A stretch of 64,000 nt of DNA, from positions 3,534,001-3,598,000 of the forward strand of contig NZ_JACCFO010000001.1 in assembly GCF_013410565.1 (NCBI RefSeq). Reading direction: 5' to 3'. Below are positions 3,733 to 20,955 of this stretch, piece by piece. Position 1 is the stretch's first letter. Every line of letters starts with the position of its first letter. Source of the stretch: Streptomonospora nanhaiensis. Lineage in GTDB: Bacteria; Actinomycetota; Actinomycetes; Streptosporangiales; Streptosporangiaceae. Under the pieces are notes generated by a model, which had not been told where the DNA came from, made no database searches, and saw only the letters and a list, made by a program, of their open reading frames with translations. The position numbers and the translations under genes are program-made.

Positions 3733-4005
3733 CAGGGCGGCTCCGGCTCTCCTGGCAGGGGGGACACGGGCGGTCGCGGCACATCGGCTGCCACACATCC
3801 GATGTACGCGGCGATCCTAGGGGTCCCGCACCGGCGTCTCTCAGCACCAGGCCACCGACCAGGGCCTAAACCCGGTCAACCTGGCAGGATGCGGACACCT
3901 GGCGGAATAACGGGCAACCGGATGCCGGGGTTCGACAACCACACAAACCCCGCACGCCTCCGTCCGCCGCGCCCGCCCCGCCGGCGCCCGCCCGGCCCGG
4001 GCGCC

Positions 4006-4791
4006 TCACACGGCCCGCGCGCTCCACCGGTCGCCGTCGCGGTCGACCTTCAGCGGCATCCCGAACGCCTCGCTCAGGTTCTCGCCGGTCAGCTCGTACT
4101 CCAGCGGACCCGCCGCCACGACCCGCCCCTCGCGCATCATCAGCACGTGGGTGAACCCCGGCGGGATCTCCTCGACGTGGTGGGACACGATCACCAGCGC
4201 GGGGGCGTCGATGTCGTCGGCCAGCGTGCTCAGCCGGCGCAGCAGGTCCTCGCGCCCGGCCAGGTCCACGCCCGCCGCCGGCTCGTCCAGCAGCAGCAGC
4301 TCGGGGTCGGCCATCAGCGCCCGGGCGATCAGCACCCGCTTGCGCTCGCCCTCCGACAGCGTGCCGTAGCGGCGCTCGGCCAGGTGCGCCGCGCCCCAGC
4401 GGGCCAGCAGCGCCCGGCCCCGGCCCAGGTCCACGGTGCCGTACTCCTCGCCGAACCGGCCCAGGTAGCCGTAGGACGCGCTGATCACGAGGTCCAGCGA
4501 CAGCGCGGAGTCGGGAATCCGGTTGGCCACCGCCGAACTGGCGAACCCGACCAGGCTGCGCAGCTCGGTGGTGTCGGCCTCGGCGAGGTCCTCGCCCAGC
4601 ACGGCGACCTCGCCGGAGTCGGGCGCCAGCTGCGCGGCGGCCACGCTGAGCAGCGACGTCTTGCCCGCGCCGTTGGGGCCGAGCACCACCCAGCGCTCGT
4701 CCTCCTCGACGGTCCACTCCACCTCGTGCAGCAGCTCCGCCTCGCCGCGGCGCACCGTCACGCCGCGCATGCGCAGCACCTGGCCGTTCAT
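4006..4791 (-). CDS. ABC transporter ATP-binding protein
   Basis: A 261-residue stand-alone nucleotide-binding domain. The Walker A is GPNGAGKT (residues 38-45). The signature is a deviant LSEGERKRV in place of LSGGQ, the Walker B is ELLLLDEPAAGVD, and the H-loop is VIVSHHVEEIP. The LSEGE signature with a 'SHHVEEIPPGFTH' H-loop region is seen in a widespread actinobacterial ATPase often annotated as an iron-siderophore or molybdate-type NBD. No membrane partner gene is adjacent, so the transported substrate is unknown. It is monocistronic, with a spacer on its 3' side before the SPFH promoter region. Confidence 0.85.
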   Translation of the reverse strand: MNGQVLRMRGVTVRRGEAELLHEVEWTVEEDERWVVLGPNGAGKTSLLSVAAAQLAPDSGEVAVLGEDLAEADTTELRSLVGFASSAVANRIPDSALSLDLVISASYGYLGRFGEEYGTVDLGRGRALLARWGAAHLAERRYGTLSEGERKRVLIARALMADPELLLLDEPAAGVDLAGREDLLRRLSTLADDIDAPALVIVSHHVEEIPPGFTHVLMMREGRVVAAGPLEYELTGENLSEAFGMPLKVDRDGDRWSARAV

Positions 4792-4924
4792 CGCACTCCC
4801 CGGGGTCTTTCCACGTCCATGCCGCCCGCCGCCGCGCCGCCGGAGGGGGCCCGCGCGGCGGACCTCGCCGATAGGAACCTACTCGACGCCCCCGGCTGTC
4901 CGCGCCGCGATCTAGGCTGAAGCG

Positions 4925-5692
4925 ATGCTCGCAGAACTGTCATCCGCACAGGTGGTCGCCTGGGGCAACGCCTGGCTGGCCGGCCACGCCGGGCTGGACG
5001 ACCTCGTCGACTCCGTCGAGCGGGCCACCGGGCCGCACGTGGTGGGCGCGGTCGCCGACGGCCTGCCGTTCGAGTCCGGCGCCCCGCTGCGCAGCGCCCT
5101 CGCGCGGCTGCGCTCCCACGGCCTGGCCCGCTTCCACCTCAGCCTGCCGGTGCCCGGCGACCCCCTGGGCCTGGTCGGCGGCCCCGACCTCAACTCCGCC
5201 GCCGTCGAGGCCCGCGAGGCCGTGCTGGTCCGCCTGGCCGACCGCCGGGTGGGGCTGGTGCCCGGCCAGGACCGCCGCGGCTCCTCCTATGTCGGGGTGG
5301 CCTGGAGCGCCTACCCCGCCGCCGACCGCGAACCCGAGTACGTCCCCCTCGCCGACGCCGAGCACCGGCTCCAGCACGCCATCCGCGAGTCGGCCGAACT
5401 GTTCGGCCGGGTCGACGACATCTCCTCCTGGGGCCCCGAGGTCGCCCGCGCGCTGGCCGACCTCCGCGACGCCGACCGCGCCCCCGGCCCCGGGCTGGCC
5501 CCCGGCCACCCCCAGCGCGCCCACCGCCTGGCCGCGCAGGCCGACCGCCTGGCCGTGGTGGTGCGCCTGGCCGCCGCCGACGGCGGCCGCGGGCTCAGCG
5601 CCGCCCAGATGGACGCCCGCCGCGAGGCGCTGCGGGTCCTCGACAGCGCGGTGCGCCGGGCGCGCGTGGCCGCCTACGGCGCCGGCGACTGA
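4925..5692 (+). CDS. Conserved actinobacterial hypothetical protein
   Basis: A 255-residue, alanine/arginine-rich soluble protein (MLAELSSAQVVAWGNAWL...). The N-terminal half looks like an alpha/beta fold with alternating strands (HVVGAVADGLPFESGAPLR; LARFHLSLPVPGDPLGLVGG; VGLVPGQDRRGSSYVGVAW). The C-terminal half is helical (RLAAQADRLAVVVRLAAADGG...). No signal peptide, membrane segment or catalytic motif is visible. Codon use is typical of the genome. It is divergent from the ABC ATPase. I do not recognise the function. Confidence 0.7.
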   Translation: MLAELSSAQVVAWGNAWLAGHAGLDDLVDSVERATGPHVVGAVADGLPFESGAPLRSALARLRSHGLARFHLSLPVPGDPLGLVGGPDLNSAAVEAREAVLVRLADRRVGLVPGQDRRGSSYVGVAWSAYPAADREPEYVPLADAEHRLQHAIRESAELFGRVDDISSWGPEVARALADLRDADRAPGPGLAPGHPQRAHRLAAQADRLAVVVRLAAADGGRGLSAAQMDARREALRVLDSAVRRARVAAYGAGD

Positions 5693-5807
5693 CCCCCGCC
5701 CCAGCGGCCCCGCGGCCGCCCCCGCACCCGGCCGCCGCCGTTCTCAGGGGAAACACCGGGGATGTTCCGGATCCGACCGGGTGGCGCCGCGCGCGATACT
5801 CGACACC

Positions 5808-6434
5808 ATGAACGACACGGCACCGGCTTTCGCCCACGGACAGGCCCTCCCCCACCTCCGCGCCTCCGACGCCGACCGCGACCGCGTTGCCGAGGTCCTG
5901 TCGACCGCGCTGAGCGAGGGCCGCCTCACCCACGACGAGCACTCCGAGCGCCTGGACGCGCTTTATGCCGCCAAGACCCTGGGCGAACTCGCGCCGCTGA
6001 CCCAGGACCTCCCCGCGGCGGCCGGCGCCGGCGCGCGCCACGACCTCGGCGGCCTGACGCGCTCCCCCGAGGGGGTGGAGAACATCCGCTCCGTCCTGGG
6101 CGCCGCCGAGCGCAAAGGCCGCTGGCTGGTCGAGCCCCGCACCAACGTGTCGGTGGTGCTGGGCAGCGTCTCCCTGGACATGCGCGAGGCCGTGCTGTCC
6201 CAGCGCGAGGTCACCGTGCAGAGCGCGCTGATGTTCAGCACCCTGGAGGTCGTCGTGCCGCCGGGCGTGCGGGTCGTCAGCCGGATGAGGGACACCCTCA
6301 GCACCGTTGAACTGAAGACCCGCGAGGACCCGGCCGTGCCCGCGCCGCCCACCGTGGTGCTGGAGGGAGGCGCCTGGCTGTCCACCGTCACGGTGCGCAC
6401 CAAGGAGCCCAAGTCCGGGCGCTGGGGCCGCTGA
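5808..6434 (+). CDS. DUF1707 domain protein, first of a tandem pair
   Basis: A 208-residue protein. The N-terminal DUF1707 segment (LRASDADRDRVAEVLSTALS, then GRLTHDEHSERLDALYAAKT) is a short helical module common in actinobacterial membrane-associated or regulatory proteins. It is followed by a beta-rich C-terminal domain resembling the cell-wall-active-antibiotic-response (LiaF-like) region (ENIRSVLGAAERKGRWLVEP, TLEVVVPPGVRV). No membrane segment is present. It lies 47 bases ahead of a clear paralogue, probably in one transcript. The role is unknown; LiaF-like folds sense envelope stress in Firmicutes, which is only suggestive here. Confidence 0.82.
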   Translation: MNDTAPAFAHGQALPHLRASDADRDRVAEVLSTALSEGRLTHDEHSERLDALYAAKTLGELAPLTQDLPAAAGAGARHDLGGLTRSPEGVENIRSVLGAAERKGRWLVEPRTNVSVVLGSVSLDMREAVLSQREVTVQSALMFSTLEVVVPPGVRVVSRMRDTLSTVELKTREDPAVPAPPTVVLEGGAWLSTVTVRTKEPKSGRWGR

Positions 6435-6481
6435 ACATCCCGTCCGGCCGGGCACTACGAGCGAGAGAACGGCACACTGCC

Positions 6482-7105
6482 ATGGAACCCGAGCACATCC
6501 GCGCCTCCGACGCCGACCGCGACCGCGTCATCGAGCGCCTGCGCGAGGCGGTCGCCGAGGGCAGGCTGACGCCCGAGGAGCACGAGGAGCGCCTCGACAC
6601 CCTGTACCGCGCCAAGACCGTCGGCGAACTCGCCGCCGTCACCCGCGACCTGCCCGCCGAGCGCGGCACCGGCCCCTTCCCGACCCAGGGCATGGAGGTC
6701 TCCTCCGACGAGGCCCGGCGGATGGCCGCCCAGGGCGAGGGACGCGAGAACATCGTGGCGGTGTTCGGCGGCGCCGAGCGCAAGGGCCGCTGGCTGGTCG
6801 AGGCCCGCACCAACGTGTCGGTGCTGTGCGGCGGCGTCGAACTCGACCTCCGCGAGGCGGTGCTGTCCCAGCGCGAGGTCACCATCCAGTGCGCGGTGGT
6901 CCTGGGCGGACTGGAGATCACCGTGCCCCACGGGGTGCGTGTGGTGAACAACACATCAGGCATTCTGGGCGGCTGCAGCCTCCACGGCACCGACGAGGTC
7001 ACCGACCCGAATCACCCCGTTATACGGCTTACGGGGACGTGCATGCTGGGCGGCATCGAGGTGAAGGTCAAGAAGCCCAAGCGCAGGAAGAAGAAGGACC
7101 GGTGA
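6482..7105 (+). CDS. DUF1707 domain protein, second of a tandem pair
   Basis: A 207-residue paralogue of the preceding gene. It has the same HIRASDADRDRVIERLREAV / EEHEERLDTLYRAKTVGEL opening, the same ERKGRWLVE-RTNVSVL core and a LiaF-like beta domain (CAVVLGGLEITVPHGVRVVN). It differs in a Lys/Arg-rich C-terminus (VKVKKPKRRKKKDR), which could bind nucleic acid or acidic membrane lipids. Tandem duplication is evident from the near-identical blocks. Hairpin 7109-7146 ends the unit. Confidence 0.82.
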   Translation: MEPEHIRASDADRDRVIERLREAVAEGRLTPEEHEERLDTLYRAKTVGELAAVTRDLPAERGTGPFPTQGMEVSSDEARRMAAQGEGRENIVAVFGGAERKGRWLVEARTNVSVLCGGVELDLREAVLSQREVTIQCAVVLGGLEITVPHGVRVVNNTSGILGGCSLHGTDEVTDPNHPVIRLTGTCMLGGIEVKVKKPKRRKKKDR

Positions 7106-7108
7106 CAC

Positions 7109-7146
7109 CCGCGCGGCCCGACCCCGGCGGGCTCGTGGCCGCGCGG
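7109..7146 (+). terminator. Hairpin terminator after the DUF1707 pair
   Basis: CCGCGCGGCC at 7109-7118 pairs with GGCCGCGCGG at 7137-7146, immediately after the stop codon of the second DUF1707 gene. No T-run follows. Confidence 0.5.
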
Positions 7147-7216
7147 TGAACGGAGGCCGCCGGGGGGCGGGCTGCGACACGGCCGGATTTGTCGGCCGAG
7201 TACCGTGGATGAAGCC

Positions 7217-8452
7217 ATGAATGAACACTCCACGCTCCTGGTTACGGTGTCCGGTCGCGACCGTCCGGGTGTCAGCGCGCGACTGCTCAGCACGCTCTCG
7301 GTGTACCCGGTGACCCTGGTCGACCTTGAGCAGGTCGTCGTGGGCGGCCGGCTGGTCCTCGGGGCGGTTCTGGCGGTCGACGACGGTGTCGCCCCCGGTG
7401 TCAGCCACGACCGCGTGTTCACCGAGCTGCGCAGCGCCGTCGAGAAGACCTGCATCGACCTCGACATGGACGTCGAGTTCTCCCGTGGCAACGGCCGTGT
7501 GGGCGCGGCCTCCGCCGACCAGCTGCACATCACCATCCTGGCCGACCCGCTGCGGCCCGGCGCACTGGGCGCGATCGCCTCGTGCATCGCCCGCGCCGGC
7601 GCCAACATCGACCGCATCGAGCGGCTGGCCAGCTACCCCGTCACCTCCATCGAACTCGACGTCTCGGGCGCCGACCCGGAGCGGCTGCGGGGCGACCTCT
7701 CCATGGAGGCCGCCACCCAGGCCATCGACGTCGCCCTCCAGCCCAGCGGGCTGCACCGGCGCGCCAAGCACCTGGTCGTCATGGACGTCGACTCCACGCT
7801 GATCCAGGGCGAGGTCATCGAACTGCTGGCCGAGCACGCGGGCTGCGCCGATGAGGTCGCCCGCGTGACCGAGGAGGCCATGCGCGGCGAGATCGACTTC
7901 GAGGACTCCCTGCGCCGCCGCGTCGCCATGCTCAAGGGCCTGGACGCCTCGGCCGTCGACCGCGTGCGCGAGCAACTGGTGCTGGCGCCCGGGGCGCGCA
8001 CCCTGGTGCGCACGCTCAAGCGGCTGGGCTATGAGTGCGCGATCGTCAGCGGGGGGTTCTCCCAGATCACCGACGTCCTGGTGGAGCGGCTGGGCATCAA
8101 CTACTCGGTGGCCAACACGCTGGAGATCGTGGACGGCAAGCTCACCGGTGAGCTGGTCGGCCCGATCGTCGACCGCAAGGGCAAGGCCGAGGCCCTGCGC
8201 CGCTTCGCGGGCGAGGCGGGCGTGCCGCTGAGCCAGACCGTGGCCATCGGCGACGGCGCCAACGACCTCGACATGCTCCAGGCCGCCGGGCTGGGCGTGG
8301 CGTTCAACGCCAAGCCGGTGGTGCGCGAGCAGGCCGACACGTCGGTCAGCGTGCCCTACCTGGACACCATCGTCTACCTCCTGGGCATCACCCGAGAGGA
8401 GGTCGAGGCCGCCGACCGCATGGACGACCTCGACCCCGCCACCGCCCACTGA
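7217..8452 (+). CDS. serB: Phosphoserine phosphatase SerB
   Basis: A 411-residue enzyme that dephosphorylates O-phosphoserine, the last step of serine biosynthesis. Two N-terminal ACT-like regulatory segments (residues about 5-85 and 103-175) precede the HAD phosphatase core. Catalytic motif I is DVDST (residues 190-194), motif II is IVSGGF, and motif IV is AIGDGANDLDML. The double ACT-HAD layout and length match actinobacterial SerB (for example the mycobacterial SerB2 type). ATG 7217 is chosen; a GTG at 7205 is an in-frame alternative, and neither has a strong Shine-Dalgarno sequence. It is transcribed alone and followed by a strong hairpin. Confidence 0.93.
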   Translation: MNEHSTLLVTVSGRDRPGVSARLLSTLSVYPVTLVDLEQVVVGGRLVLGAVLAVDDGVAPGVSHDRVFTELRSAVEKTCIDLDMDVEFSRGNGRVGAASADQLHITILADPLRPGALGAIASCIARAGANIDRIERLASYPVTSIELDVSGADPERLRGDLSMEAATQAIDVALQPSGLHRRAKHLVVMDVDSTLIQGEVIELLAEHAGCADEVARVTEEAMRGEIDFEDSLRRRVAMLKGLDASAVDRVREQLVLAPGARTLVRTLKRLGYECAIVSGGFSQITDVLVERLGINYSVANTLEIVDGKLTGELVGPIVDRKGKAEALRRFAGEAGVPLSQTVAIGDGANDLDMLQAAGLGVAFNAKPVVREQADTSVSVPYLDTIVYLLGITREEVEAADRMDDLDPATAH

Positions 8453-8473
8453 GGCCCGCGCCGACAGGCAACG

Positions 8474-8511
8474 ACGGCCGCCCGACCCCCAGGCGGGGGG
8501 TGGGCGGCCGT
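8474..8511 (+). terminator. Rho-independent-type terminator after serB
   Basis: ACGGCCGCCC at 8474-8483 pairs with GGGCGGCCGT at 8502-8511. CCCCC/GGGGG pairing inside the loop extends the structure, and TTTC follows. It sits 21 bases after the serB stop codon. Confidence 0.7.
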
Positions 8512-8545
8512 TTCGCTGCGCCCACGCGGGCGCGGTTTCATGTGC

Positions 8546-9421: not shown

Positions 9422-10228
9422 ATGGCAGAGCACGTGCGCGAAGAGTGGCTGCCCTGGGCGGCCAAACTCAAAAAAATTCGCGAACAAGCGGGTCTGACGC
9501 AGGCTGAGTTGGCCCGGCAGGCGTTGATGAGTCGACAAGTAGTAAGCAAGTACGAGATGGCGACAAGAGCGCCCAAATCCGGCGTAGCTAGCAAGTTCGA
9601 CGAGATCTTGTCTACAGGCGGCGCGCTCAGGCAACTGTGGCACCAACTCAGCAACTCGGTGGGGATACCCGACGAGTGGCGCGACTTCATTCAGTTGGAA
9701 CGCGCGGCCGATGAGATTCGCGAGTACCAGCCGTTGGTGATCCCTGGGCTCCTGCAATCGCCGAAGTACGCCCGTGCGATGATGCAGCGCAGCGGCACAC
9801 GCATCAAGGACGGGGATACCGAAGGGCTCGTTGCCACTCGACTGGATCGTCTGGGTAGGCTCCGGGACGACGTGCACCTGTGGTTCGTCCTGGAAGAGAC
9901 AGCCATCCGCCGTGTCGTCGGGTCCGTAGAGGCGCAGCTCGAAGGACTGTCCCACTTGCTAGAGCTGTGCGCGCACGAGAGCATCCGGATCACGGTGGTG
10001 CCCGAGTACTCCCCGATGCGCCCGGGCGTGCTGGGCAGTTTCCGTGTCATGCGCCTGCCGGGAGGAAATCTCGTGGCGCACTCCGAGCACACTCTCGGTG
10101 AGGTCGTGGTCAATGAAGCCGAGAAGGTCAGCCGTCTCCTTACCTACTTCGGGGACCTGCAAAGCGAGTCGCTGAGCACGAGCGATTCAATGAGACTGAT
10201 CGAAAAAGTAAGAGGAACCCTGCAATGA
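9422..10228 (+). CDS. XRE-family helix-turn-helix regulator with DUF5753
   Basis: A 268-residue protein. The XRE helix-turn-helix (about residues 14-50, KIREQAGLTQAELARQALMS then RQVVSKYE) is followed by the DUF5753 domain, with the typical EIREYQPLVIPGLLQSPKYA and ELCAHESIRITVVPEYSPM signatures. These actinomycete regulators are almost always paired with a DUF397 protein (as in the BldB-Abra type pairs) and probably act together on nearby promoters. The DUF397 gene follows here with an ATGA overlap. The Shine-Dalgarno sequence (GGAG 9416-9419) is unusually close to the ATG, only two bases away. Confidence 0.9.
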   Translation: MAEHVREEWLPWAAKLKKIREQAGLTQAELARQALMSRQVVSKYEMATRAPKSGVASKFDEILSTGGALRQLWHQLSNSVGIPDEWRDFIQLERAADEIREYQPLVIPGLLQSPKYARAMMQRSGTRIKDGDTEGLVATRLDRLGRLRDDVHLWFVLEETAIRRVVGSVEAQLEGLSHLLELCAHESIRITVVPEYSPMRPGVLGSFRVMRLPGGNLVAHSEHTLGEVVVNEAEKVSRLLTYFGDLQSESLSTSDSMRLIEKVRGTLQ

Positions 10229-10573: not shown

Positions 10574-10699
10574 ATGGGTTCGCACGGCAACGACGACAAG
10601 CCCGAGGACAAGGGGAAGGGCAAGCCCTCGGAGTGGGACGGCCAGCAGGGCCCGACTCACGGCGGTGGAGGGGAAAAGACGGGTAAGGACAATAAGTGA
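10574..10699 (+). CDS. Small hydrophilic Lys/Gly-rich peptide, coupled to a methyltransferase
   Basis: A 41-residue peptide (MGSHGNDDKPEDKGKGKPSE then WDGQQGPTHGGGGEKTGKDN, final Lys). It starts at ATG 10574 with AGAGGGGG at 10562-10569 as ribosome binding site. Its stop codon overlaps the GTG start of the PIMT-like methyltransferase (GTGA), so the two are translationally coupled. It contains Asp, Glu, Thr, Ser and Lys residues that a graspetide ligase could join, and its position is where a RiPP precursor would be expected. It does not obviously resemble the second peptide at 12130. It could be a precursor, a remnant of one, or an unrelated leader peptide. Confidence 0.55.
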   Translation: MGSHGNDDKPEDKGKGKPSEWDGQQGPTHGGGGEKTGKDNK

Positions 10700-11859
10700 C
10701 GTCCACCCACCCTGAGAGCGGCCCGGCCGAGTTGGCCGGGCTGCTCCGGACTCAAGGGGACCTCACCGATCCGGCCTGGGAGCAGGCGTTCAGGCGCGTC
10801 CCTCGCGGCCTGTTCATCCCCGATGCGATCTGGGCGCCAGACGCGCGCGATGCCACGTGGCTGGTCCGCGTGGAACGCGATGACCCGTACTGGTCCCAGG
10901 TCGTCTACTCGGATTCGGCGGTGGCCACCCAGGCGGACGACGGCGCACCGGACGGACCGGGCGGGCGCGGCCGCTATGTGACCAGCTCGGCGTCGCAACC
11001 GTCCCTCGTGCTGCGGATGCTGGACGCGTTGGACGTGGGCGAGGATTCGCGCGTACTGGAGATCGGCACGGGTACGGGCTTCAACGCGGCCCTGCTGGCG
11101 GAGCGCCTTGGCGGACCCAACGTGGTGACGGTCGAGGTCGATGGCCAGGTCGCCGCCCACGCGCGTGAGCGGCTGGCGGCCGCCGGCCTGGCGCCGACCG
11201 TGGTCGTGGGCGACGGAGCCCGCGGCGCGCCCTCGCACGGGCCCTTCGATCGGGTGATCGCGACGGTCGCGGCAGGTCCGGTGCCGTACGCGTGGGTGGC
11301 GCAGACGCGCGCGGGCGGGGTCATCGTGGTCCCTTGGGGAACACCCTATGCCAGCACGGGCCTGCTGCGGCTTGTGGTGAAAGAGGACGGAACCGCGTCG
11401 GGGCCGGTCATCGGCCGGGCGGGATTCATGTGGCTGCGACAGCAGCGCGGCCTCACCGGCGGATGGCGCACCTACGTGGATACGAGCGCTCCGGTGGAGA
11501 CATCCGCCTCGACGCTCGACCCCGACGACATCCTGCGGATGGACTCCCCCGCCCGCTTCGCGGTTGGGCTCCGGGTGCCGGGCCTGTGCCAGGTGGACTT
11601 CCACGCCTCGGACGGCTCGGGCGAGTACACGCTGTGGTTCTACGACGGCAGCGGGGCGTGGGCGTCACTGGACTACGTGCCCGGCGCAGGTGAATACGTG
11701 GTCGAGCAGCACGGTGAGCGCCGCTTGTTCGACGAGGTCGAAGCCGCCTACCGCTGGTGGGAGCGCAACGGTCGCCCCGACTGCGAGCGGTTCGGTGCCA
11801 CCGTCACCGCGAACGGCGAGCACGTGTGGCTGGACAGGCCGGAGTGCGTCGTGTCCTAA
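10696..11859 (+). CDS. PIMT-like SAM-dependent methyltransferase of an ATP-grasp (graspetide) system, copy 1
   Basis: A 387-residue protein from GTG 10696. The SAM-binding motif EIGTGTG (residues 122-128) and the upstream TSSASQPSLVLRML are those of protein-L-isoaspartate O-methyltransferases. The N-terminal WSQVVYSDSAVATQ and the C-terminal extension (residues about 230-387) match the methyltransferases found with ATP-grasp ribosomal peptide maturases. In characterised aspartimidylated graspetides such an enzyme methylates an Asp that then cyclises to aspartimide. It lacks an intact adjacent ATP-grasp ligase; only a ligase-like fragment lies downstream (11943-12107). Confidence 0.82.
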   Translation: MTSTHPESGPAELAGLLRTQGDLTDPAWEQAFRRVPRGLFIPDAIWAPDARDATWLVRVERDDPYWSQVVYSDSAVATQADDGAPDGPGGRGRYVTSSASQPSLVLRMLDALDVGEDSRVLEIGTGTGFNAALLAERLGGPNVVTVEVDGQVAAHARERLAAAGLAPTVVVGDGARGAPSHGPFDRVIATVAAGPVPYAWVAQTRAGGVIVVPWGTPYASTGLLRLVVKEDGTASGPVIGRAGFMWLRQQRGLTGGWRTYVDTSAPVETSASTLDPDDILRMDSPARFAVGLRVPGLCQVDFHASDGSGEYTLWFYDGSGAWASLDYVPGAGEYVVEQHGERRLFDEVEAAYRWWERNGRPDCERFGATVTANGEHVWLDRPECVVS

Positions 11860-11942: not shown

Positions 11943-12107
11943 GACGCTCAGCGGGCGTGGCTGCTGGAGCAGACCGGCGCGCCCATTCTCAACCTGACCG
12001 CCGACCTGCCGCAGCCCACTACAGACGGTGACCTCTTCCGGCCACATGGCCCGCACCGCTGCGCGGCCGCCCGGGCCCGGGAATACTGCTGGTGGCCCGT
12101 GCCCTGA
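11943..12107 (+). pseudogene. Remnant of an ATP-grasp peptide maturase (C-terminal fragment)
   Basis: The frame from 11943 reads DAQRAWLLEQTGAPILNLTA and continues to a TGA at 12105-12107. AWLLEQTGAPI matches the extreme C-terminus of the intact ATP-grasp gene downstream (WAWLEEQTGAPMADLVADEL). No start codon or upstream ATP-grasp homology remains; the frame is closed by a TGA at 11901. I read it as the tail of a deleted ligase gene that once accompanied methyltransferase copy 1. The match is short, so chance is possible but unlikely given the context. Confidence 0.55.
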
Positions 12108-12129: not shown

Positions 12130-12417
12130 ATGACCACCAAGCCCGCACCCGCCCCGCCAGCCGACGACAATCCCCTTGTGCTGGCGGACGACCGCTTCGC
12201 CACCGGGCTGCCCGGCCGCTGCGTCCCCGTCTCCGACGCCCTGCCCTCCGCTCACCGCCCCTGGGGCATGGACCGGGCCCGCGTGCCCCGTCCGGTCCGC
12301 CTGCCGACGGGCAAGCACCAGAAACCCACGGAGAACAAGATCATCACCCGGCCCACCACCATCAACAACGGCGGCAAAGTCGAATCCGACACCGAGACCC
12401 AGACCGTCACCGACTGA
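12130..12417 (+). CDS. Putative graspetide (ATP-grasp target RiPP) precursor peptide
   Basis: A 95-residue peptide directly ahead of an ATP-grasp ligase, with TGATG overlap of stop and start. The leader-like N-terminal two-thirds is Pro-rich and contains RPWGMDR (residues 43-49), at the place of the conserved leader helix motif recognised by graspetide ligases. The last 22 residues (74-95) are rich in Thr (76, 77, 88, 90, 92, 94) and acidic residues (Glu85, Asp87, Glu89, Asp95) plus Lys83. These are the donor and acceptor side chains for ester or amide macrocycles. There is a plausible RBS (GAGGAAGG) before ATG 12130. Which residues are cross-linked cannot be told from sequence. Confidence 0.72.
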   Translation: MTTKPAPAPPADDNPLVLADDRFATGLPGRCVPVSDALPSAHRPWGMDRARVPRPVRLPTGKHQKPTENKIITRPTTINNGGKVESDTETQTVTD

Positions 12418-13376
12418 TGGCTTCGGCCGTCCTGGTCCTGGCCGCCTCCGACGACGGCGAGGCCGCCTTGGTCGCCGACGCCCTCACACGCCGCTCCCAG
12501 CAGGTGGTGTGGCTGGACCTGTCGTGGTTCCCACTGCGCGCCAGTGTGCAGGCCCAGTTGACCCCATCAGGGTGGATCGGGCACATCATCACTACCCCGG
12601 CCGCTACCGTCGCGCTCGCTGACGTCGCCGCCGTCTACTCCCACCACAGTCCGCCCTTCGCACCGGCGGAAGGGATGAGCGTGCCGGAGCGCCGCTTCGC
12701 CATCGTGGAGGCGCGGTTCGGCCTCGGCGGAATCCTGGCGTCCCTGCCCGCCCGGTGGGTCTCCCACCCCTCGGCTGTGGCCGACGCCGAGTACAAGCCC
12801 GTCCAACTGGCCGCGCTGGCCGCCGCAGGCCTGGCAGTGCCCGCCACCTGGATGGGCAATGACCCAAGCGCGGCTCGCGCGTTCGTCTCCGGCCAGCCCG
12901 GCGGCGCCGTCTACAAAGCGATCATGCACAAGGTGGTTTCGGAGGAGGGCGCGGTCAAAGCCCTCTACACCACCCCGGTGACGGGCGCCGACATCGACGA
13001 GCGCGTGGCGGCCACCATGCACCAGTTCCAGCACCGGGTGCGCGGGGCCCGCGACGTGCGGGCCCTGGTGACCTCCGGCGGGTGCGAGGCCGTGGAGATC
13101 ACCGACCGGACCGGCGTTGCGCGACTGGACTACCGCGATCACTACGACACCCTGGCCTATGCCCGTACCCGACTGGAGGATGGCGTCGTCCGCCGGGCCC
13201 AGCAGGCGCTGACCCGGCTCGGACTGCGGTCGGCGGTGTTCGACTTCGCCGTCACCGCCGACCGGACATGGGTCTATGAACTCAACCCGGGGGGCCAGTG
13301 GGCATGGCTTGAGGAGCAGACCGGCGCCCCCATGGCCGACCTGGTCGCCGACGAACTCACGGGAGCTGCACCATGA
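12417..13376 (+). CDS. ATP-grasp ribosomal peptide maturase (graspetide macrocyclase, TgmB/MvdD-like)
   Basis: A 319-residue ATP-grasp ligase. The N-terminal pre-ATP-grasp part (residues 1-120) includes WLDLSWFPLRASVQAQ and VYSHHSPPF. The central ATP-binding segment has VYKAIMHKVV (Lys167/172). The C-terminal Mg/ATP site is FDFAVTADRTWVYELNPGGQ (Glu288, Asn290), followed by the typical WAWLEEQTGAPM end. Family members activate Asp/Glu carboxylates in a precursor peptide by phosphorylation and join them to Ser/Thr hydroxyls or Lys amines. It is coupled to the precursor upstream (TGATG) and to methyltransferase copy 2 downstream (ATGA), the standard precursor-ligase-methyltransferase order. Confidence 0.9.
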   Translation: MASAVLVLAASDDGEAALVADALTRRSQQVVWLDLSWFPLRASVQAQLTPSGWIGHIITTPAATVALADVAAVYSHHSPPFAPAEGMSVPERRFAIVEARFGLGGILASLPARWVSHPSAVADAEYKPVQLAALAAAGLAVPATWMGNDPSAARAFVSGQPGGAVYKAIMHKVVSEEGAVKALYTTPVTGADIDERVAATMHQFQHRVRGARDVRALVTSGGCEAVEITDRTGVARLDYRDHYDTLAYARTRLEDGVVRRAQQALTRLGLRSAVFDFAVTADRTWVYELNPGGQWAWLEEQTGAPMADLVADELTGAAP

Positions 13377-14479
13377 CCGCCCTGGCACCGCAGGACTGGC
13401 AGCCGCTTGCGGCATCCCTGGCCGAGCGGATCGGCGCCGCCGGCACGCCCTGGGGCGCGGCGTTCGCCGCCGTCCCCCGCCACGTCTTCGTCCCCTCCTA
13501 CTGGACCGGTGGCCCCCACAGCACCGAGGTCGGCGCCGAGGACCCGCGCTGGCTTCCGACGGTCTACAGCGACGAGCCGCTGACCGTGCAGCGCAGGCCC
13601 CACCCCGACCACCCGGGCAGCACCTGGCCGACCTCATCCAGCAGCCGCCCCTCGCTGATGCTGGACATGCTCCAGGCCCTGGAGGTGGACGAAGGGCACC
13701 GCGTGCTGGAGATCGGGACGGGCACCGGCTACAACGCGGCCCTGCTCGCCTCCCGGCTAGGCGAAGACCGCGTGGTCTCAATCGACATCGACCCCGACCT
13801 GGTGGCCTTGGCCCGCGGGCGCCTGCACGGGCTCAACCTGCACCCGGTGCTGGCCGCCGCCGACGGCGCCCACGGCTGGCCGGCGGGCGCCCCCTACGAC
13901 CGGGTGATCGCCACCCACTCCGTCGAAGCCGTGCCCTACCCCTGGGTGGCCCAGACCCGCCCGGGCGGCCTGGTCCTGGTCGACGTGCGCTCGGTGGGGT
14001 CGCCGCACGTGGGCCGCATCGCCCGCCTCCACGTGCACGAGGACGGCACCGCCCGCGGGGGTTTCACCCACTGCGGCGACGGCGCGTTCATGGGCGCCCG
14101 GACTCGGCTGGACCGCCCCGAGGTGCGCCGCCAGTCCCACCGCGACCTGCGCGACGCCCGCACCCGCACGAGCAGGGTCGGCGGCGCCGAACTGAAGAAC
14201 CCCGGCCTGGCCTTCGCGGTGTGGGCGGCCGAGCCGGAGGTCATCATCGCCCCGTCCGGCGCGGCCGACATCGCCGCCCCCGACGGCTCCTGGGCCACCG
14301 CCCCCGACGAGCCCGGCCAGGTACAGGTGGCCGGGCCGCGCGACCTGTGGGCGCTGGTCGAGGACACCCGCACCCACTGGGAGGCGGCGGGCAGGCCGGG
14401 AATCGAGGACTTCACGATCACCGTGGCCCCGCAGGGCCAGACGATCGCGCTCCCACATGACAACGCCGCGGACGTCTGA
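13373..14479 (+). CDS. PIMT-like methyltransferase of the graspetide system, copy 2
   Basis: A 368-residue protein with SAM motif EIGTGTG (residues 113-119), WPTSSSSRPSLMLDMLQALE upstream of it, the YSDEPLTVQ N-terminal block and a C-terminal extension beyond the PIMT core. It is a clear homologue of the gene at 10696 (shared PRxxFxP, VYSD, SSSxPSL, VPYxWVAQTRxGG). Its ATG overlaps the ligase stop codon (ATGA). In fuscimiditide-type pathways this enzyme methylates an Asp of the cross-linked peptide, leading to aspartimide. That role is inferred from family and position. Confidence 0.87.
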   Translation: MTALAPQDWQPLAASLAERIGAAGTPWGAAFAAVPRHVFVPSYWTGGPHSTEVGAEDPRWLPTVYSDEPLTVQRRPHPDHPGSTWPTSSSSRPSLMLDMLQALEVDEGHRVLEIGTGTGYNAALLASRLGEDRVVSIDIDPDLVALARGRLHGLNLHPVLAAADGAHGWPAGAPYDRVIATHSVEAVPYPWVAQTRPGGLVLVDVRSVGSPHVGRIARLHVHEDGTARGGFTHCGDGAFMGARTRLDRPEVRRQSHRDLRDARTRTSRVGGAELKNPGLAFAVWAAEPEVIIAPSGAADIAAPDGSWATAPDEPGQVQVAGPRDLWALVEDTRTHWEAAGRPGIEDFTITVAPQGQTIALPHDNAADV

Positions 14480-15413: not shown

Positions 15414-15710
15414 TCAGCCTCCGCCGGCCGCGCGCACGGGCGGGGCCTGGCGGGCCTGGGCGTCCGGGGCGCCCGGCCAGGTGGCGTCCTGCTCGACCAC
15501 GACCCGGTCCGCGCCCACCGGGTGCCAGGACACCGGCTCCAGGCGGATGCCCGAGCGCGTGATCCAGTCGGTGAACACCTCCACGCCCGCGGCCGCGCCC
15601 TTGGGGCCGCCCACCCGGATTCCCGGGGCGGCGATCCGGCGGGCGGTGTCCAGGTCGCGTGCGTTCACCGCGCGGTGCCACTCCCGCACCGGCGCCCAGT
15701 CCTCGGCCAT
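15414..15710 (-). CDS. SnoaL-like/NTF2-fold small protein
   Basis: A 98-residue protein beginning MAEDWAPVREWHRAVNARDL. The 'W/HxAVNARDLDTARRIAAPGI' helix and the GPKGAAAGVEVFTDWI...GIRLEPVSW strand pattern are typical of NTF2-like (SnoaL) proteins. The usual C-terminal strands (about 20 more residues) are replaced by a Pro/Gly/Arg-rich tail, so the gene may be truncated or frameshifted at its 3' end. A strong Shine-Dalgarno (AAGGAGG) and a perfect palindrome (15724-15742) sit just upstream, indicating tight regulation. The function is unknown; family members include small-molecule cyclases and isomerases. Confidence 0.65.
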   Translation of the reverse strand: MAEDWAPVREWHRAVNARDLDTARRIAAPGIRVGGPKGAAAGVEVFTDWITRSGIRLEPVSWHPVGADRVVVEQDATWPGAPDAQARQAPPVRAAGGG

Positions 15711-15723
15711 GCGAAGCCTCCTT

Positions 15724-15742
15724 TATATGCGTTTCGCATATA
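15724..15742. promoter_or_regulatory. Palindromic operator upstream of the SnoaL-like gene
   Basis: TATATGCGTTTCGCATATA is a perfect 8-3-8 dyad located 14 bases before the start codon. Its core ATGCG-N3-CGCAT is repeated upstream of the MarR regulator gene (21891-21903), suggesting that regulator binds here. Confidence 0.6.
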
Positions 15743-15796
15743 TTAGGCCACCGGGGCGCCGCCGCACCCGGCCGGGCGCGGCGGCGGTGCGGGCGG

Positions 15797-17215
15797 TTAC
15801 GCCGCCCGCTCCCCCGGGCCCGCGGCCGGCACGCGCATGCGCCCGGCCACCAGCGCCCCGGCCAGCAGCCCGGCACCGGCCAGCAGCGCGGCGACCAGGA
15901 ACGGGTCGGCGCCGTGCAGGGCGGGGGCGAAGCCGATCCCCACGTAGACCGCGACACCGGCGGAACCGCCGAGCTGGTCGGCCGCGCGCTGGATGCCCGA
16001 GGCCGTCCCGGCGTCGTCGCCGGTCACGCCGCTGACCGCCAGGTACTGGAGGCCGACCAGGCCGAACCCCATCCCGGCGGCGATCAGCACCATCGCCGGG
16101 ACCATCGCCCACGGCCCCGCGCCCCAGTGCGCGACCAGAGCGATCACGGCCATCGCGGCGCCGGTGAACGCCAGCCCCGCCAGCACGCACGCGCGCGCCC
16201 CCCACCCGGCCAGCAGCCGGGGCACGAGCGCCGAGGCCGCGACCAGTGCGGCGGCCAGCGGCAGCATCGTCGCCCCGGCCGCCAGCGGCCCCAGGCCGAG
16301 CCGGTCCTGGAGGTAGAACGTGAACAGCAGGAACGAGGTCGACAGCGCCCCGCTGAGCAGCATGGTGGTCACGTTGGCCGCGACCCGGGTGCGGTCGGCG
16401 AAGAAGGCCGGCGGCAGCAGCGGGTTGCGCGAGCGAGCCTCCACCCGCGCGAACCCGGCCCCCGCCAGCGCCGCGCCGGCCAGCGCGGCGGGCGCGGCCC
16501 ACACCGGCGCGCCCGGTTCGCCCGCCTGGACCGCGCCGAAGGCGAACAGCAGCGGGCAGGCCGTCAGCAGCAGGGCCCCGGGGACGTCCAGCGGCCCGGC
16601 CCCGGGCGCGGCGGGCCGGTCGCGCTCGACCAGCAGCAGCGCGGCCGGCAGCACCACCAGCACAAAGGGCACCGAGAGCAGGAAGACCCACCGCCACCCC
16701 AGGTGGGCGGTGACGACCCCCGACAGGACGAACCCGAGCACGAGCCCGCAGCTGGCGACCGCGGCCCACACGCCCAGGGCCCGCGACCGGCGCGGCCCCT
16801 CGGGGAACATCAGCACGATGGTCGCCATCGCCGCCGGCAGCGCGATCGCCTCGCCGGCGCCCTGGAGCAGCCGGGCGACCACCAGCAGCGCGAAGGACGG
16901 CGCCAGGCCCGCCAGCAGGGAGGCGGCGCCGAACACCCCCGTGCCCACCAGCAGCGTGCGGCGGCGCCCCAGCAGGTCGCCCAGGCGCCCGCCCAGCATC
17001 AGCAGCCCGCCGCCGGTGATGGTGTAGCCGACCACGACCCAGGTCAGGGCGTGGCCGCCCACCCCGAAGCGGGCGCCGATCGAGGGCAGGGCGATGTTGA
17101 CCACGGTCACGTCGACCGCGATGAGGAACTGGAGAGCCGACATCGCGCACAGCACCAGCCACGCGCGTGCCGGGGACGGGGTGGACCCGCCCGAGGGGGG
17201 AAGGCTTGAGGACAT
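15797..17215 (-). CDS. MFS drug-efflux transporter (EmrB/QacA, DHA2-type)
   Basis: A 472-residue membrane protein with about 12-14 hydrophobic segments. Motif A-like GGRLGDLLGRRRTLLVG follows the second helix; DVTVVNIALPSIGARFG in helix 1 is the DHA2 family motif D1. A mid-protein loop (residues about 205-215) links the two halves. Such proton-driven pumps export antibiotics and other amphipathic compounds. ATG 17215 starts MSSSLPPSGG. It is downstream of the SnoaL gene's promoter but transcribed from its own region; it probably belongs with the surrounding stress and efflux genes. Confidence 0.88.
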   Translation of the reverse strand: MSSSLPPSGGSTPSPARAWLVLCAMSALQFLIAVDVTVVNIALPSIGARFGVGGHALTWVVVGYTITGGGLLMLGGRLGDLLGRRRTLLVGTGVFGAASLLAGLAPSFALLVVARLLQGAGEAIALPAAMATIVLMFPEGPRRSRALGVWAAVASCGLVLGFVLSGVVTAHLGWRWVFLLSVPFVLVVLPAALLLVERDRPAAPGAGPLDVPGALLLTACPLLFAFGAVQAGEPGAPVWAAPAALAGAALAGAGFARVEARSRNPLLPPAFFADRTRVAANVTTMLLSGALSTSFLLFTFYLQDRLGLGPLAAGATMLPLAAALVAASALVPRLLAGWGARACVLAGLAFTGAAMAVIALVAHWGAGPWAMVPAMVLIAAGMGFGLVGLQYLAVSGVTGDDAGTASGIQRAADQLGGSAGVAVYVGIGFAPALHGADPFLVAALLAGAGLLAGALVAGRMRVPAAGPGERAA

Positions 17216-17307
17216 CCGGTGCTCCGTCGCTCAGAGGGTTTCCGAGCAGCACGAAAGTGCCGCTCCGGTCTGATCACGAAGCGGCTGGACGTCGCGAGGA
17301 CAGGTCC

Positions 17308-17334
17308 GGACGCCCCGCCGCTAGCGGGGCGTCC
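17308..17334 (-). terminator. Perfect hairpin terminator after the HTH/MarR regulator gene
   Basis: GGACGCCCCG at 17308-17317 and CGGGGCGTCC at 17325-17334 form a perfect 10-bp stem with a 7-base loop. It lies about 110 bases downstream of the minus-strand regulator gene ending at 17442. Confidence 0.6.
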
Positions 17335-17441
17335 TGGTGACGGCGGCGCAGGCGGCCGCGGCGGAGCCGGACATGCCCTGAACGCTACCAGCGGCGCACG
17401 CCGCCGGTGCCGGGCGCCTCGGCGGCCGGTCCGCGGGGGCC

Positions 17442-18206
17442 CTAGGCGGGGCGGGCGGGGTCGCGGGAGGGGGCTTGAGCGGGATCGTGGGCCCTGGCCT
17501 CGGACATGCTGCGGAGGACCTCGCGGGCCTGTTCGGCGGCGCGGTGCGTGCTCTCGCTGACGAAGTCGAGGAAGCGGGCGATGTTCTCCAGGCGGACGGC
17601 GGCGGGGGTGTGGGGGCCGAGGATGGTCGCGCCCTCGCGCACGGTCGTGACCAGCACGTCGTTGGCGCGGGCACTGGCGATCGTGGACTGGTAGAACAGG
17701 TCGTCGTCCACGACGTAGCGGTCGCGGCGGCCGTCGGCGCGCTCCCGGCGGAGGAGGGACAGGCCCTCCAGGTAGGTGACCGCCTTGGAGACCGACGCCG
17801 GACTGACCTGGAGGTGCCGGGCGAGTTCGGCGGCGGTGAGGCTGGCCTCGTCGGTGATGTACAGGCAGGCCAGCACGCGCGCCGGCATCTTGGGCAGGCC
17901 CGAGGACATGAGGACGGTGGTCAGCCGCTCCTCGAACTCCGCCACCGCCTCGGCGTCGCGCCCGTAGGGCTGGGGAGCCGCCTCCGACCGCGAGGCGGCG
18001 GTCCGGCGCCGGCGCGTGCGCTGCTCGGTGGCGCGCTGCGCCAGGTCGGGCCGGTAGCCCGTGGGGCCGCCGTTGCGCATGACCTCGCGCGTGACCGTGG
18101 AGGTCGGACGGTCCAGGCGCCGCGCGATCTCGGCGTAGGCGAGGCCGTCGGCCAGGCCCAGCGCGATCTGCTGGCGCTCCTGCTGGGTGAGCCTGCCTCC
18201 CGGCAT
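17442..18206 (-). CDS. Two-domain helix-turn-helix / GbsR-MarR-like transcriptional regulator
   Basis: A 254-residue protein. The N-terminus (GGRLTQQERQQIALGLADGL, AYAEIARRLDRPTSTVTREV) is an IS30/HTH_38-type helix-turn-helix. The second half (LPKMPARVLACLYITDEASL, TAAELARHLQVSPASVSKAV) is a GbsR/MarR-type winged helix with a C-terminal helical dimerisation tail. ATG 18206 is preceded by GGGGAG. It is divergent from the DUF4097 gene at 18442; a perfect inverted repeat (18268-18289) sits in the shared promoter region, so it probably controls that module. The extra IS30-like HTH in front of a GbsR core is unusual but known in actinomycetes. Confidence 0.8.
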   Translation of the reverse strand: MPGGRLTQQERQQIALGLADGLAYAEIARRLDRPTSTVTREVMRNGGPTGYRPDLAQRATEQRTRRRRTAASRSEAAPQPYGRDAEAVAEFEERLTTVLMSSGLPKMPARVLACLYITDEASLTAAELARHLQVSPASVSKAVTYLEGLSLLRRERADGRRDRYVVDDDLFYQSTIASARANDVLVTTVREGATILGPHTPAAVRLENIARFLDFVSESTHRAAEQAREVLRSMSEARAHDPAQAPSRDPARPA

Positions 18207-18267
18207 CGAGGTCTCCCCTCGTCGGTGTTCTCCGTCGCCCCCACCATAGCGTTCATCTCCATTACAT

Positions 18268-18289
18268 TGCAACGCACAGGCGCGTTGCA
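18268..18289. promoter_or_regulatory. Perfect inverted repeat in the regulator/DUF4097 divergent promoter
   Basis: TGCAACGC at 18268-18275, a 6-base spacer and GCGTTGCA at 18282-18289. The surrounding 150 bases are markedly A/T-richer than the rest of the window. Candidate operator for the divergent HTH/MarR-like regulator. Confidence 0.5.
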
Positions 18290-18441
18290 TTGCATTCCTT
18301 TCACAGTCAGCGCAACGATTTCACGCCTTTTACCTGCGCATATGCAGTTACTTCGCAACTTTGATGTTGGAGACTTGTGGAAAGCAACGTAGCGTTTGCG
18401 ATGTCGGAAACAACGAGCAGCACACCACACCGGAGAACGAA

Positions 18442-19107
18442 ATGCAGACCTTCGCCACCCCCGCCCCGATCGCCGCCGTCCTCGACGTCCCCGCCGGCCG
18501 CGTCCAGTTCATCGCCGCCGACCGCGCCGACACCACCGTCGAGGTCCGGCCCGCCAACCCGGCCAAGAGCCGCGACGTCCAGGCCGCCGAGCAGGCCACC
18601 GTCTCCTACGCCGAGGGCGTCCTGCGGGTCCACGCCCCCGAGCCCACGAACAAGGTCCTGGGCTCCTCGGGGGCCCTGGAGGTCACCGTCCAGCTCCCCG
18701 CCGACTGCCGCGTGGAGGTCAAGGCCGCCGCCACGGAACTGCGCGGCGTCGGCCGCCTGGGCACCGTGGACGTCGAGGGCGCCTACCGCCAGATCAAGAT
18801 CGACGAGGCCGCCGGGGTCCGCCTCACCGCCACGGACGGCGACGTCGAGATCGGCCGCCTCAACGGGGACGCCGCGATCAGCACCCAGCGGGGCGACATC
18901 CGGATCGCCGAGGCCGGGCGCGGCACGGTCGAACTGAGCACCCAGTCCGGCGACATCGCGGTCGCCGCCGCCGCGGGCGTCTCGGCCGCCCTGGACGCCG
19001 GCACCGGCCACGGCCGGGTCTCCAACTCCCTCAAGAACGACGGCACCACCGAACTCGACATCCGCGCCACCACCTCCTACGGCGACATCAGCGCCCGCAG
19101 CCTCTGA
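18442..19107 (+). CDS. DUF4097-type beta-strand repeat protein (module A)
   Basis: A 221-residue protein from ATG 18442 (GGAG at 18432-18435), beginning MQTFATPAPIAAVLDVPAGR. It consists of repeated short beta strands (VEIGRLNGDAAISTQRGDIR, VELSTQSGDIAVAAAAG, TTSYGDISARSL), the DUF4097 right-handed beta-helix-like repeat. No signal peptide or anchor is visible. In actinomycetes this family is commonly found ahead of DrrAB-type ABC transporters, as here. The role is unknown. A paralogue at 24410 heads a similar module. Confidence 0.85.
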   Translation: MQTFATPAPIAAVLDVPAGRVQFIAADRADTTVEVRPANPAKSRDVQAAEQATVSYAEGVLRVHAPEPTNKVLGSSGALEVTVQLPADCRVEVKAAATELRGVGRLGTVDVEGAYRQIKIDEAAGVRLTATDGDVEIGRLNGDAAISTQRGDIRIAEAGRGTVELSTQSGDIAVAAAAGVSAALDAGTGHGRVSNSLKNDGTTELDIRATTSYGDISARSL

Positions 19108-19254
19108 CCGGCACCACCAGGGCCCGCCGGCCGGGCCCACCGCGATCCCGACCGCCCCGGTCGCCGCCGCGGGCCCGGCCGCCCTCCCCGGGACCACCCT
19201 CCCACCCGCACGCCCCCACCACCCCGCACACCCGCCCCTGAACAGGAGAAGCAC

Positions 19255-20100: not shown

Positions 20101-20955
20101 CCGGGCGGCGCCCACGGCGCCGGCAAGACCACCACCGTCAAGATCCTCTCCACCCTCATCACCCCCGACCCCGCCTCGGGCGAGGTCCGCGTCGCCGGAC
20201 ACGACCTCGCCGCCGACCCGCAGGCCGTGCGCGCCGCGATCGGCGTCACCGGCCAGTTCTCCGCCGTGGACAACCTCATCACCGGCGAGGAGAACATGCT
20301 CCTCATGGCGGACCTGCACCGCCTGCCCCGCCGCGAGGGCCGCCGCGTGACCGCCGAACTGCTGGAGCGCTTCGACCTGGTCCAGGCCGCCAAGAGGCCC
20401 GCCTCCACCTACTCCGGCGGTATGCGCCGCCGCCTCGACATCGCGATGACCCTGGTCGGCGGCCCGCGGATCATCTTCCTGGACGAGCCGACCACCGGCC
20501 TGGACCCCCGCTCCCGGCACACCATGTGGCAGATCATCCGCCGGCTCGTCGCCGAGGGGGTCACCGTCTTCCTCACCACGCAGTACCTGGAGGAGGCCGA
20601 CGAACTCGCCGACCGGATCGCCGTGCTCAACGACGGCACCATCGCCGCCGAGGGCACCCCCGAGGAGTTGAAGCGAATGGTCCCCGGCGGGCACGTCCGC
20701 CTCCGCTTCACCGACCCGGCCGCCTACCGGGGCGCCGCCGCCGCGCTGCCCGGCAGCGTCCCCGACGACGACTCCCTGGCCCTGCGGATCGCCGGCGACG
20801 GCAGCCAGCGCGAACTGCGCTCCATCCTCGACCGGCTGGACACCGCCAGGGTCGAGGCCGACGAGCTCACCGTGCACACCCCCGACCTCGACGACGTCTT
20901 CTTCGCCCTGACCGGCGGCGGGGTCCCCCAGCAGGCCAAGGAGGCACTCCGATGA
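20101..20955 (+). pseudogene. DrrA-like ABC transporter ATPase lacking its N-terminus
   Basis: The reading frame resumes at a Walker A, GGAHGAGKT (20104-20130), and continues with the Q-loop (IGVTGQFSAVDN), signature (STYSGGMRRRLDIA), Walker B (IIFLDEPTTGLDPRS) and the DrrA C-terminal domain, ending TPDLDDVFFALTGGG. The paralogue at 25288 has about 42 residues before Walker A. Here only 30 bases separate the Walker A from the upstream hydrolase stop, and no ATG, GTG or TTG start precedes it. The first usable start (GTG 20227) is after Walker A, so a protein made from it could not bind ATP normally. A deletion of the gene start is the simplest reading. Confidence 0.75.

Follow-up and report, generated by a model that had tools for sequence, protein, structure and literature searches.

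A graspetide operon of the PIMT-linked kind with Asn-Gly-Gly in place of the conserved loop aspartate

The window, that is the whole stretch of 64,000 nucleotides of Streptomonospora nanhaiensis DNA analysed here, contains at positions 12130-14479 three genes arranged head to tail (Table 1). They encode a small precursor peptide, an ATP-grasp ligase and a PIMT-like peptide aspartyl methyltransferase (PAMT). An RBS-like sequence, GAGGAAGG, precedes the precursor ATG, the precursor stop codon and the ligase start codon have one base in common (CTGATGG), and the ligase stop overlaps the methyltransferase start in ATGA; the reading frames and the TGATG and ATGA overlaps are as claimed in the original prediction.

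Table 1. Features of the graspetide locus and of its upstream neighbourhood (positions in the window).
Feature	Position	Strand	Evidence
XRE-type regulator with DUF5753, possible regulator of the locus	9422..10228	+	PF19054 E 3.4e-45, HTH domains
DUF397 protein, 57 aa	10225..10398	+	PF04149 E 1.1e-20
Probable imiditide (type I pamtide) precursor, 41 aa, Trp-Asp-Gly	10574..10699	+	Composition; similar small peptides before L035 and L037 of the same genome
Second PAMT, 387 aa, imiditide-like branch	10696..11859	+	TIGR04188 E 2.1e-99, below its cut-off
Short remnant of an ATP-grasp 3' end, 57 bp, frame reads AWLLEQTGAPILNLTADL	11949..12005	+	79% DNA identity to the operon's own ligase gene (13296-13352), E 1.8e-6
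5' module common to the lasso precursor of the same genome	12029..12167	+	88% identity over 139 bp, E 1.7e-43; 123/140 columns
Graspetide precursor, 95 aa	12130..12417	+	ORF; 14 homologous precursors in 341 family genomes; alignment
Leader motif RPWG, residues 43-46	12256..12267	+	Invariant in 15/15 precursors
Asn80-Gly81-Gly82 at the place of the relatives' loop Asp (position 81)	12367..12375	+	GGC here, GAC in 14/14 relatives
ATP-grasp graspetide synthetase, 319 aa	12417..13376	+	TIGR04187; PDB relatives; subfamily tree 100/100
PIMT-like PAMT, 368 aa, with C-terminal domain	13373..14479	+	TIGR04188; PF01135; AlphaFold2 model; tree

Far more strongly than chance would allow, the ligase matched TIGR04187 with an E value of 1.4e-82 (277.4 bits, under the curated cut-off of 350), and the methyltransferase matched TIGR04188 (E 5.2e-94; 315.6 bits, under the curated cut-off of 380) as well as PF01135. 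Assignment from curated thresholds alone was dropped, since both enzymes score under the NCBIfam cut-offs, and the assignment is based instead on the conserved neighbourhood, the trees and the PDB matches. Structures related to the ligase in the PDB are 5ig8, 7m4s (AMdnB), 5ig9, 9bou, 7mgv (CdnC) and 7drm. For the methyltransferase, the AlphaFold2 model (mean pLDDT of 89.2) had as its best PDB match 1dl5, the PIMT of Thermotoga maritima (E 4.7e-21, TM 0.57 by query length, 21% identity). Its C-terminal domain contains the WXXXGXP motif (WEAAGRP, residues 336-342), and a PIMT homologue with such a domain and motif in the operon is the mark of group 13, the PIMT-linked graspetides. The precursor matched no family in NCBIfam or Pfam at E values up to 1, target-RiPP models, to which the original prediction had pointed, included. 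Within its own genome (6.28 Mb, 2 contigs) the operon ligase is the only complete member of its family; at C1:1532231-1532529, two short pieces of ATP-grasp maturase sequence (L042 and L043) stand side by side in different frames, possibly a decayed ligase.

A precursor profile built from four precursors and searched in 341 genomes of the family found 14 other genomes at E values below 1e-25. At E ≤ 0.001 the matches extended to 25 of the 341 genomes, including the own genome, the remaining 10 being weak, and two remote matches (L090 and L091) came from a 394-genome sample of the class. Of the 14 subfamily relatives (L072-L085), 13 keep the gene order of the operon (precursor, ligase, methyltransferase), one of these, L080, with a ligase frame that stops early. 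In the fourteenth, L073 (G012:C12:215000-220600), an intact-looking precursor stands beside a truncated ligase, and no methyltransferase was found. A ligase scan of the named genomes gave one distant locus only, in Streptomyces glaucescens. In the methyltransferase tree (43 sequences) the 14 subfamily members, window included, form one branch with a support of 100/99; in the ligase tree the subfamily is again one branch (100/100), in which the window adjoins L073 (100/99). The two trees are compatible, and a methyltransferase swapped in from another lineage was rejected on that ground.

Graspetide clusters are recognised by an ATP-grasp of the graspetide-synthetase family beside a precursor, found here with a score below the TIGR04187 cut-off, and by a leader motif and a hydroxyl/acidic core conserved together with the ligase, also found here. 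The original prediction named two ways in which it could fail, a ligase unlike peptide-maturase ATP-grasp enzymes and a precursor not conserved with it; the TIGR04187 match and the 13 relatives with all three genes in order speak against both. The proposed fuscimiditide-type gene order is likewise borne out: the ligase is a peptide-maturase ATP-grasp, the methyltransferase a RiPP-type PIMT homologue, and the precursor is conserved alongside both in relatives. Judging from sequence, the locus is almost certainly a true PIMT-linked graspetide operon, and its product is predicted to carry ester or amide cross-links.

The precursor consists of a leader (about residues 1-62) and a core (about residues 63-95). 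With the invariant Thr67 at a distance of 29 residues from the C-terminus, the 22-residue core proposed originally is probably too short. The leader motif RPWG is the counterpart of RPFG, given as the recognition sequence in the leader of ThfA, the fuscimiditide precursor (PMC13003496), and the ligase would recognise it here. When the 15 precursors were aligned, Thr67, Thr76, Asp87 and Asp95 were found to be kept in all of them, window included, and in all of them 10 residues separate Thr76 from Asp87. The inner loop equals that of fuscimiditide, in which residues 8-17 (the Tyr8-Ser17 loop) lie between Thr7 and Asp18, graspimiditide loops being described as 10-12 residues long (PMC12291112). 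From these invariant residues and the 10-residue loop, and by analogy, we infer that the ligase would close two side-chain esters, one nested in the other: an inner Thr76-Asp87 and an outer Thr67-Asp95, a pairing that is probably right. In fuscimiditide the outer ester is offset from the inner by 4 residues on either side, whereas the offsets here are 9 (Thr67) and 8 (Asp95) residues (PMC12291112, PMC13001092).

The loop itself, TINNGGKVES, contains no Asp. Position 81, Asp in every relative, is Gly in the window (GGC, 12370-12372), and position 80 is Asn in the window only, among the 15 precursors. Outside the subfamily, an Asp was present between the Thr-rich and the acidic halves in all 43 readable methyltransferase-linked precursors. 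These comprise 17 precursors from one locus set and 29 from a 70-locus set, minus three places common to both, and were read by eye, as a regular-expression definition of the loop Asp fails across subfamilies; methyltransferase-positive loci with no credible precursor were left out, ten in the first set (three of them read later) and four in the 70-locus set. The window is the single case seen with a methyltransferase but no loop Asp, the link between the two being confounded by kinship. In the 70-locus set, 37 loci have no methyltransferase in the fetched stretch, and 24 of these share a nearly constant core that ends in TAGSKTHFDD and has no loop Asp (L117, L121 and L159, for example). Asn-Gly is not unique to the window among these cores: it occurs in L115 beside the Asp-Gly of that core, and in L143 as Asn-Gly-Gly further on. 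A relative that has Asn-Gly but lacks the loop Asp did not turn up, and a stable change from one to the other is thus without an example.

A graspimiditide is marked by a loop Asp that is methylated on the way to an aspartimide. Because this residue is absent from the window precursor, the operon is that of a graspetide, not shown to be a graspimiditide, and the claim that its methyltransferase makes an aspartimide is unsupported as it was written. A new compound, also proposed originally, is still plausible, and an imide could yet arise in it from Asn80-Gly81. What is new at this locus is a core and an altered imide site within a known kind of cluster.

The state of the two enzymes was gauged by private changes, counted at columns that do not vary among the other members of the subfamily (L073 left out). 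The window methyltransferase has 2 private changes in 79 invariant columns (0-6 in the 13 others), and thus does not look like a relic. As it is not visibly decayed on this sequence measure, three readings remain for its role: an entry to the imide other than Asp, a very recent loss, or another acceptor. The window ligase has 11 private changes in 68 invariant columns (0-10 in the others), and could itself be drifting.

The reading we favour, tentatively and on the evidence of sequence, is that of a stem-loop diester graspetide in which the imide, if any, would start from deamidation of Asn-Gly. Asn-Gly is the classic deamidation site, and Asn80-Gly81, one residue before the usual site, would deamidate spontaneously to a succinimide (aspartimide) that would open to isoAsp or Asp. 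The methyltransferase would then re-methylate isoAsp80 (or Asp80) and drive its return to the imide, like a canonical PIMT. Two observations on related systems are consistent with these steps: in the SsfA graspetide an isoAsp was reported at a loop Asn (Asn83), arising without its methyltransferase (PMC10787088), and graspimiditide methyltransferases are described as able to methylate the isoAsp form too (PMC13001092). Against it count the position of Asn80, one residue ahead of the usual site, the failure to find a relative with Asn-Gly and no loop Asp, and a ligase that could itself be drifting. In the titles and abstract beginnings searched, a scope that most subscription papers lie outside, we found no report of Asn as an entry to a RiPP aspartimide. 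The chance that an imide forms from Asn80 and that the methyltransferase acts on its products is a real one, though somewhat short of even. RiPP-linked PIMT homologues are described as acting directly on Asp, unlike repair PIMTs; if Asn-Gly replaces Asp here, the biosynthetic enzymes would be tied back to the repair reaction, and their specificity for Asp or isoAsp could be tested in one natural system.

A recent loss of methylation comes close to the Asn-primed route in likelihood, and we hold it for a serious possibility, if below even. Asp81 would have become Gly by one transition (GAC to GGC), for which the GAC codon of all 14 relatives is a ready source, and a plain diester would now be made beside a methyltransferase without substrate that has not yet decayed. 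The nearest relative of the ligase, that of L073, itself lies in a decayed cluster, which agrees with a loss. In five other genomes of the genus the precursor was not found at E ≤ 0.001, so that they give no measure of the cluster's age in this species. The methyltransferase, however, shows no excess of changes at conserved columns. If the step is being lost, a graspetide has been caught giving up its aspartimide, which would help to ask what the imide is for, a question named as open in PMC13001092.

It is improbable that the methyltransferase instead modifies a different core carboxylate (Asp87, Asp95, Glu85, Glu89 or the C-terminus), with an ester pairing unlike that of the relatives. Asp87, in an Asp-Thr, and several Glu are indeed still present, and an ester from a side chain to the C-terminus has been postulated for SsfA (PMC10787088), meaning that pairings vary; but Asp87 and Asp95 are invariant at constant spacing in all 15 precursors, as expected for ester acceptors, and the characterised enzymes are described as modifying one loop Asp (PMC13001092). 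A sequencing or assembly error in the Gly81 codon, for which one base would suffice, is very improbable in a near-complete assembly (2 contigs, completeness 100), the more so as Asn80, found only here among the 15 precursors, means that the site differs by more than one residue.

Just upstream of the operon, behind the XRE/DUF397 pair and outside the range of the original prediction, lies a second PAMT gene directly preceded by a gene for a 41-residue peptide. Imiditides are recognised by a short precursor rich in Gly, Pro, Asp and Lys directly ahead of a PAMT; the peptide has 26.8% Gly, 17.1% Lys and 12.2% Asp, with only 7.3% Pro, and a net charge of -1. The second PAMT groups with the L035 and L037 methyltransferases (support 95/87). 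The unit 10574-11859 fits an imiditide by its sequence, and modification of an Asp in the linear peptide by the PAMT alone is predicted. Elsewhere in the genome, a PAMT is preceded by a cysimiditide-like (type II pamtide) precursor (L036:1238-1453) in which the motif CXXCXGXG occurs twice; the cysimiditide-like and imiditide-like precursors of this genome keep Asp-Gly. Another TIGR04188 methyltransferase, above the curated cut-off, groups with the graspetide methyltransferases and also lies behind an XRE/DUF397 pair (L031, C1:6235019-6239107); no precursor or ligase was recognised beside it.

In the sister species G003 the flanks of the locus match at 83-94% identity (window 2828-8533, 15426-19112 and 20106-20560). 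The stretch between them carries an XRE gene of 43% identity, a DUF397 region whose DNA is 87% identical and, running in the opposite direction, the ligase and methyltransferase (each 35% identical) of another graspetide cluster (L171, G003:C20:11500-31000), the precursor of which has a GDG loop (L127). The presence of a different graspetide cluster at the matching site indicates that clusters have been exchanged here, and from these sequence comparisons the site is a RiPP exchange hot spot.

The start of the precursor gene belongs to a 5' module in which 101 bp of upstream sequence are followed by 38 bp of the gene itself, with the start codon and first 12 codons. Its partner lies 133 kb away, around the start of a lasso precursor gene (C1:3678932-3679071; L092:2433-2572), and the relatives' precursors do not have the N-terminus that it encodes. 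We rejected the idea of a widespread promoter element, since 20 other genomes (14 of the subfamily and 6 lasso-related) gave only short weak matches, the best (E 2.0e-7 over about 55 bp) lying ahead of an unrelated ORF; within the genus, the five other genomes yielded no more than two matches of 28 bp, each of them in G003. Neither sigma-70 promoters nor terminators came up in a pattern scan. On six frames the ligase profile also matched the short ATP-grasp remnant, with an E value of 3.5e-5 and only 9.1 bits.

The lasso cluster (L092:2535-6292; C1:3679034-3682791) contains cyclase, PqqD-like, transglutaminase-like and PIMT genes, and no DTAD motif was found near it. Relatives of its methyltransferase number seven (4 in 341 family genomes and 3 in 388 class genomes), and all five lasso precursors readable among them have Asp9, Asp10 and Asp12. 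By the general rule that the core begins at Gly, on which this numbering is based, the own lasso precursor, which reads GQYASEQADDSTNGGYW, has Thr in place of Asp12, followed by Asn13-Gly14-Gly15, and keeps Asp10. The coincidence of Asn-Gly in the graspetide and the lasso peptide was spotted post hoc, and with Asp10 kept the parallel is suggestive only. A shift of the imide source from Asp to Asn-Gly in two unrelated RiPPs of this genome, both cyclised and both linked to a methyltransferase, is unlikely from these sequences; Asp10 may be the true site of the lasso peptide. Were the shift true, ring closure would start a self-deamidating clock, with the methyltransferase only resetting isoAsp to the imide, and a logic of protein repair would become a biosynthetic step.

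Among known systems, fuscimiditide of Thermobifida fusca (ThfA/ThfB/ThfM) has the gene order found here, precursor, ATP-grasp and PIMT homologue; its loop aspartimide is described as formed from Asp by ThfM, while the window loop has no Asp (PMC12291112, PMC13001092). Amycolimiditide, albusimiditide and SsfA(BM) have the same types of enzymes and are presented as stem-loop graspetides that are methylated in the loop; unlike the window they have a methylated loop Asp followed by Gly, and more cross-links, up to five in the class (PMC13001092, PMC10787088). The imiditides, or type I pamtides, have a small Gly/Lys/Asp-rich peptide before a PAMT, as does the upstream unit, which differs from the others in adjoining a graspetide operon. 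The 14 uncharacterised subfamily clusters share with the window the leader, the invariant Thr and Asp residues and the ligase, and in 13 cases the methyltransferase; what sets them apart is Asp81, which none of the 14 lacks and after which comes Ser, Gly or Asn.
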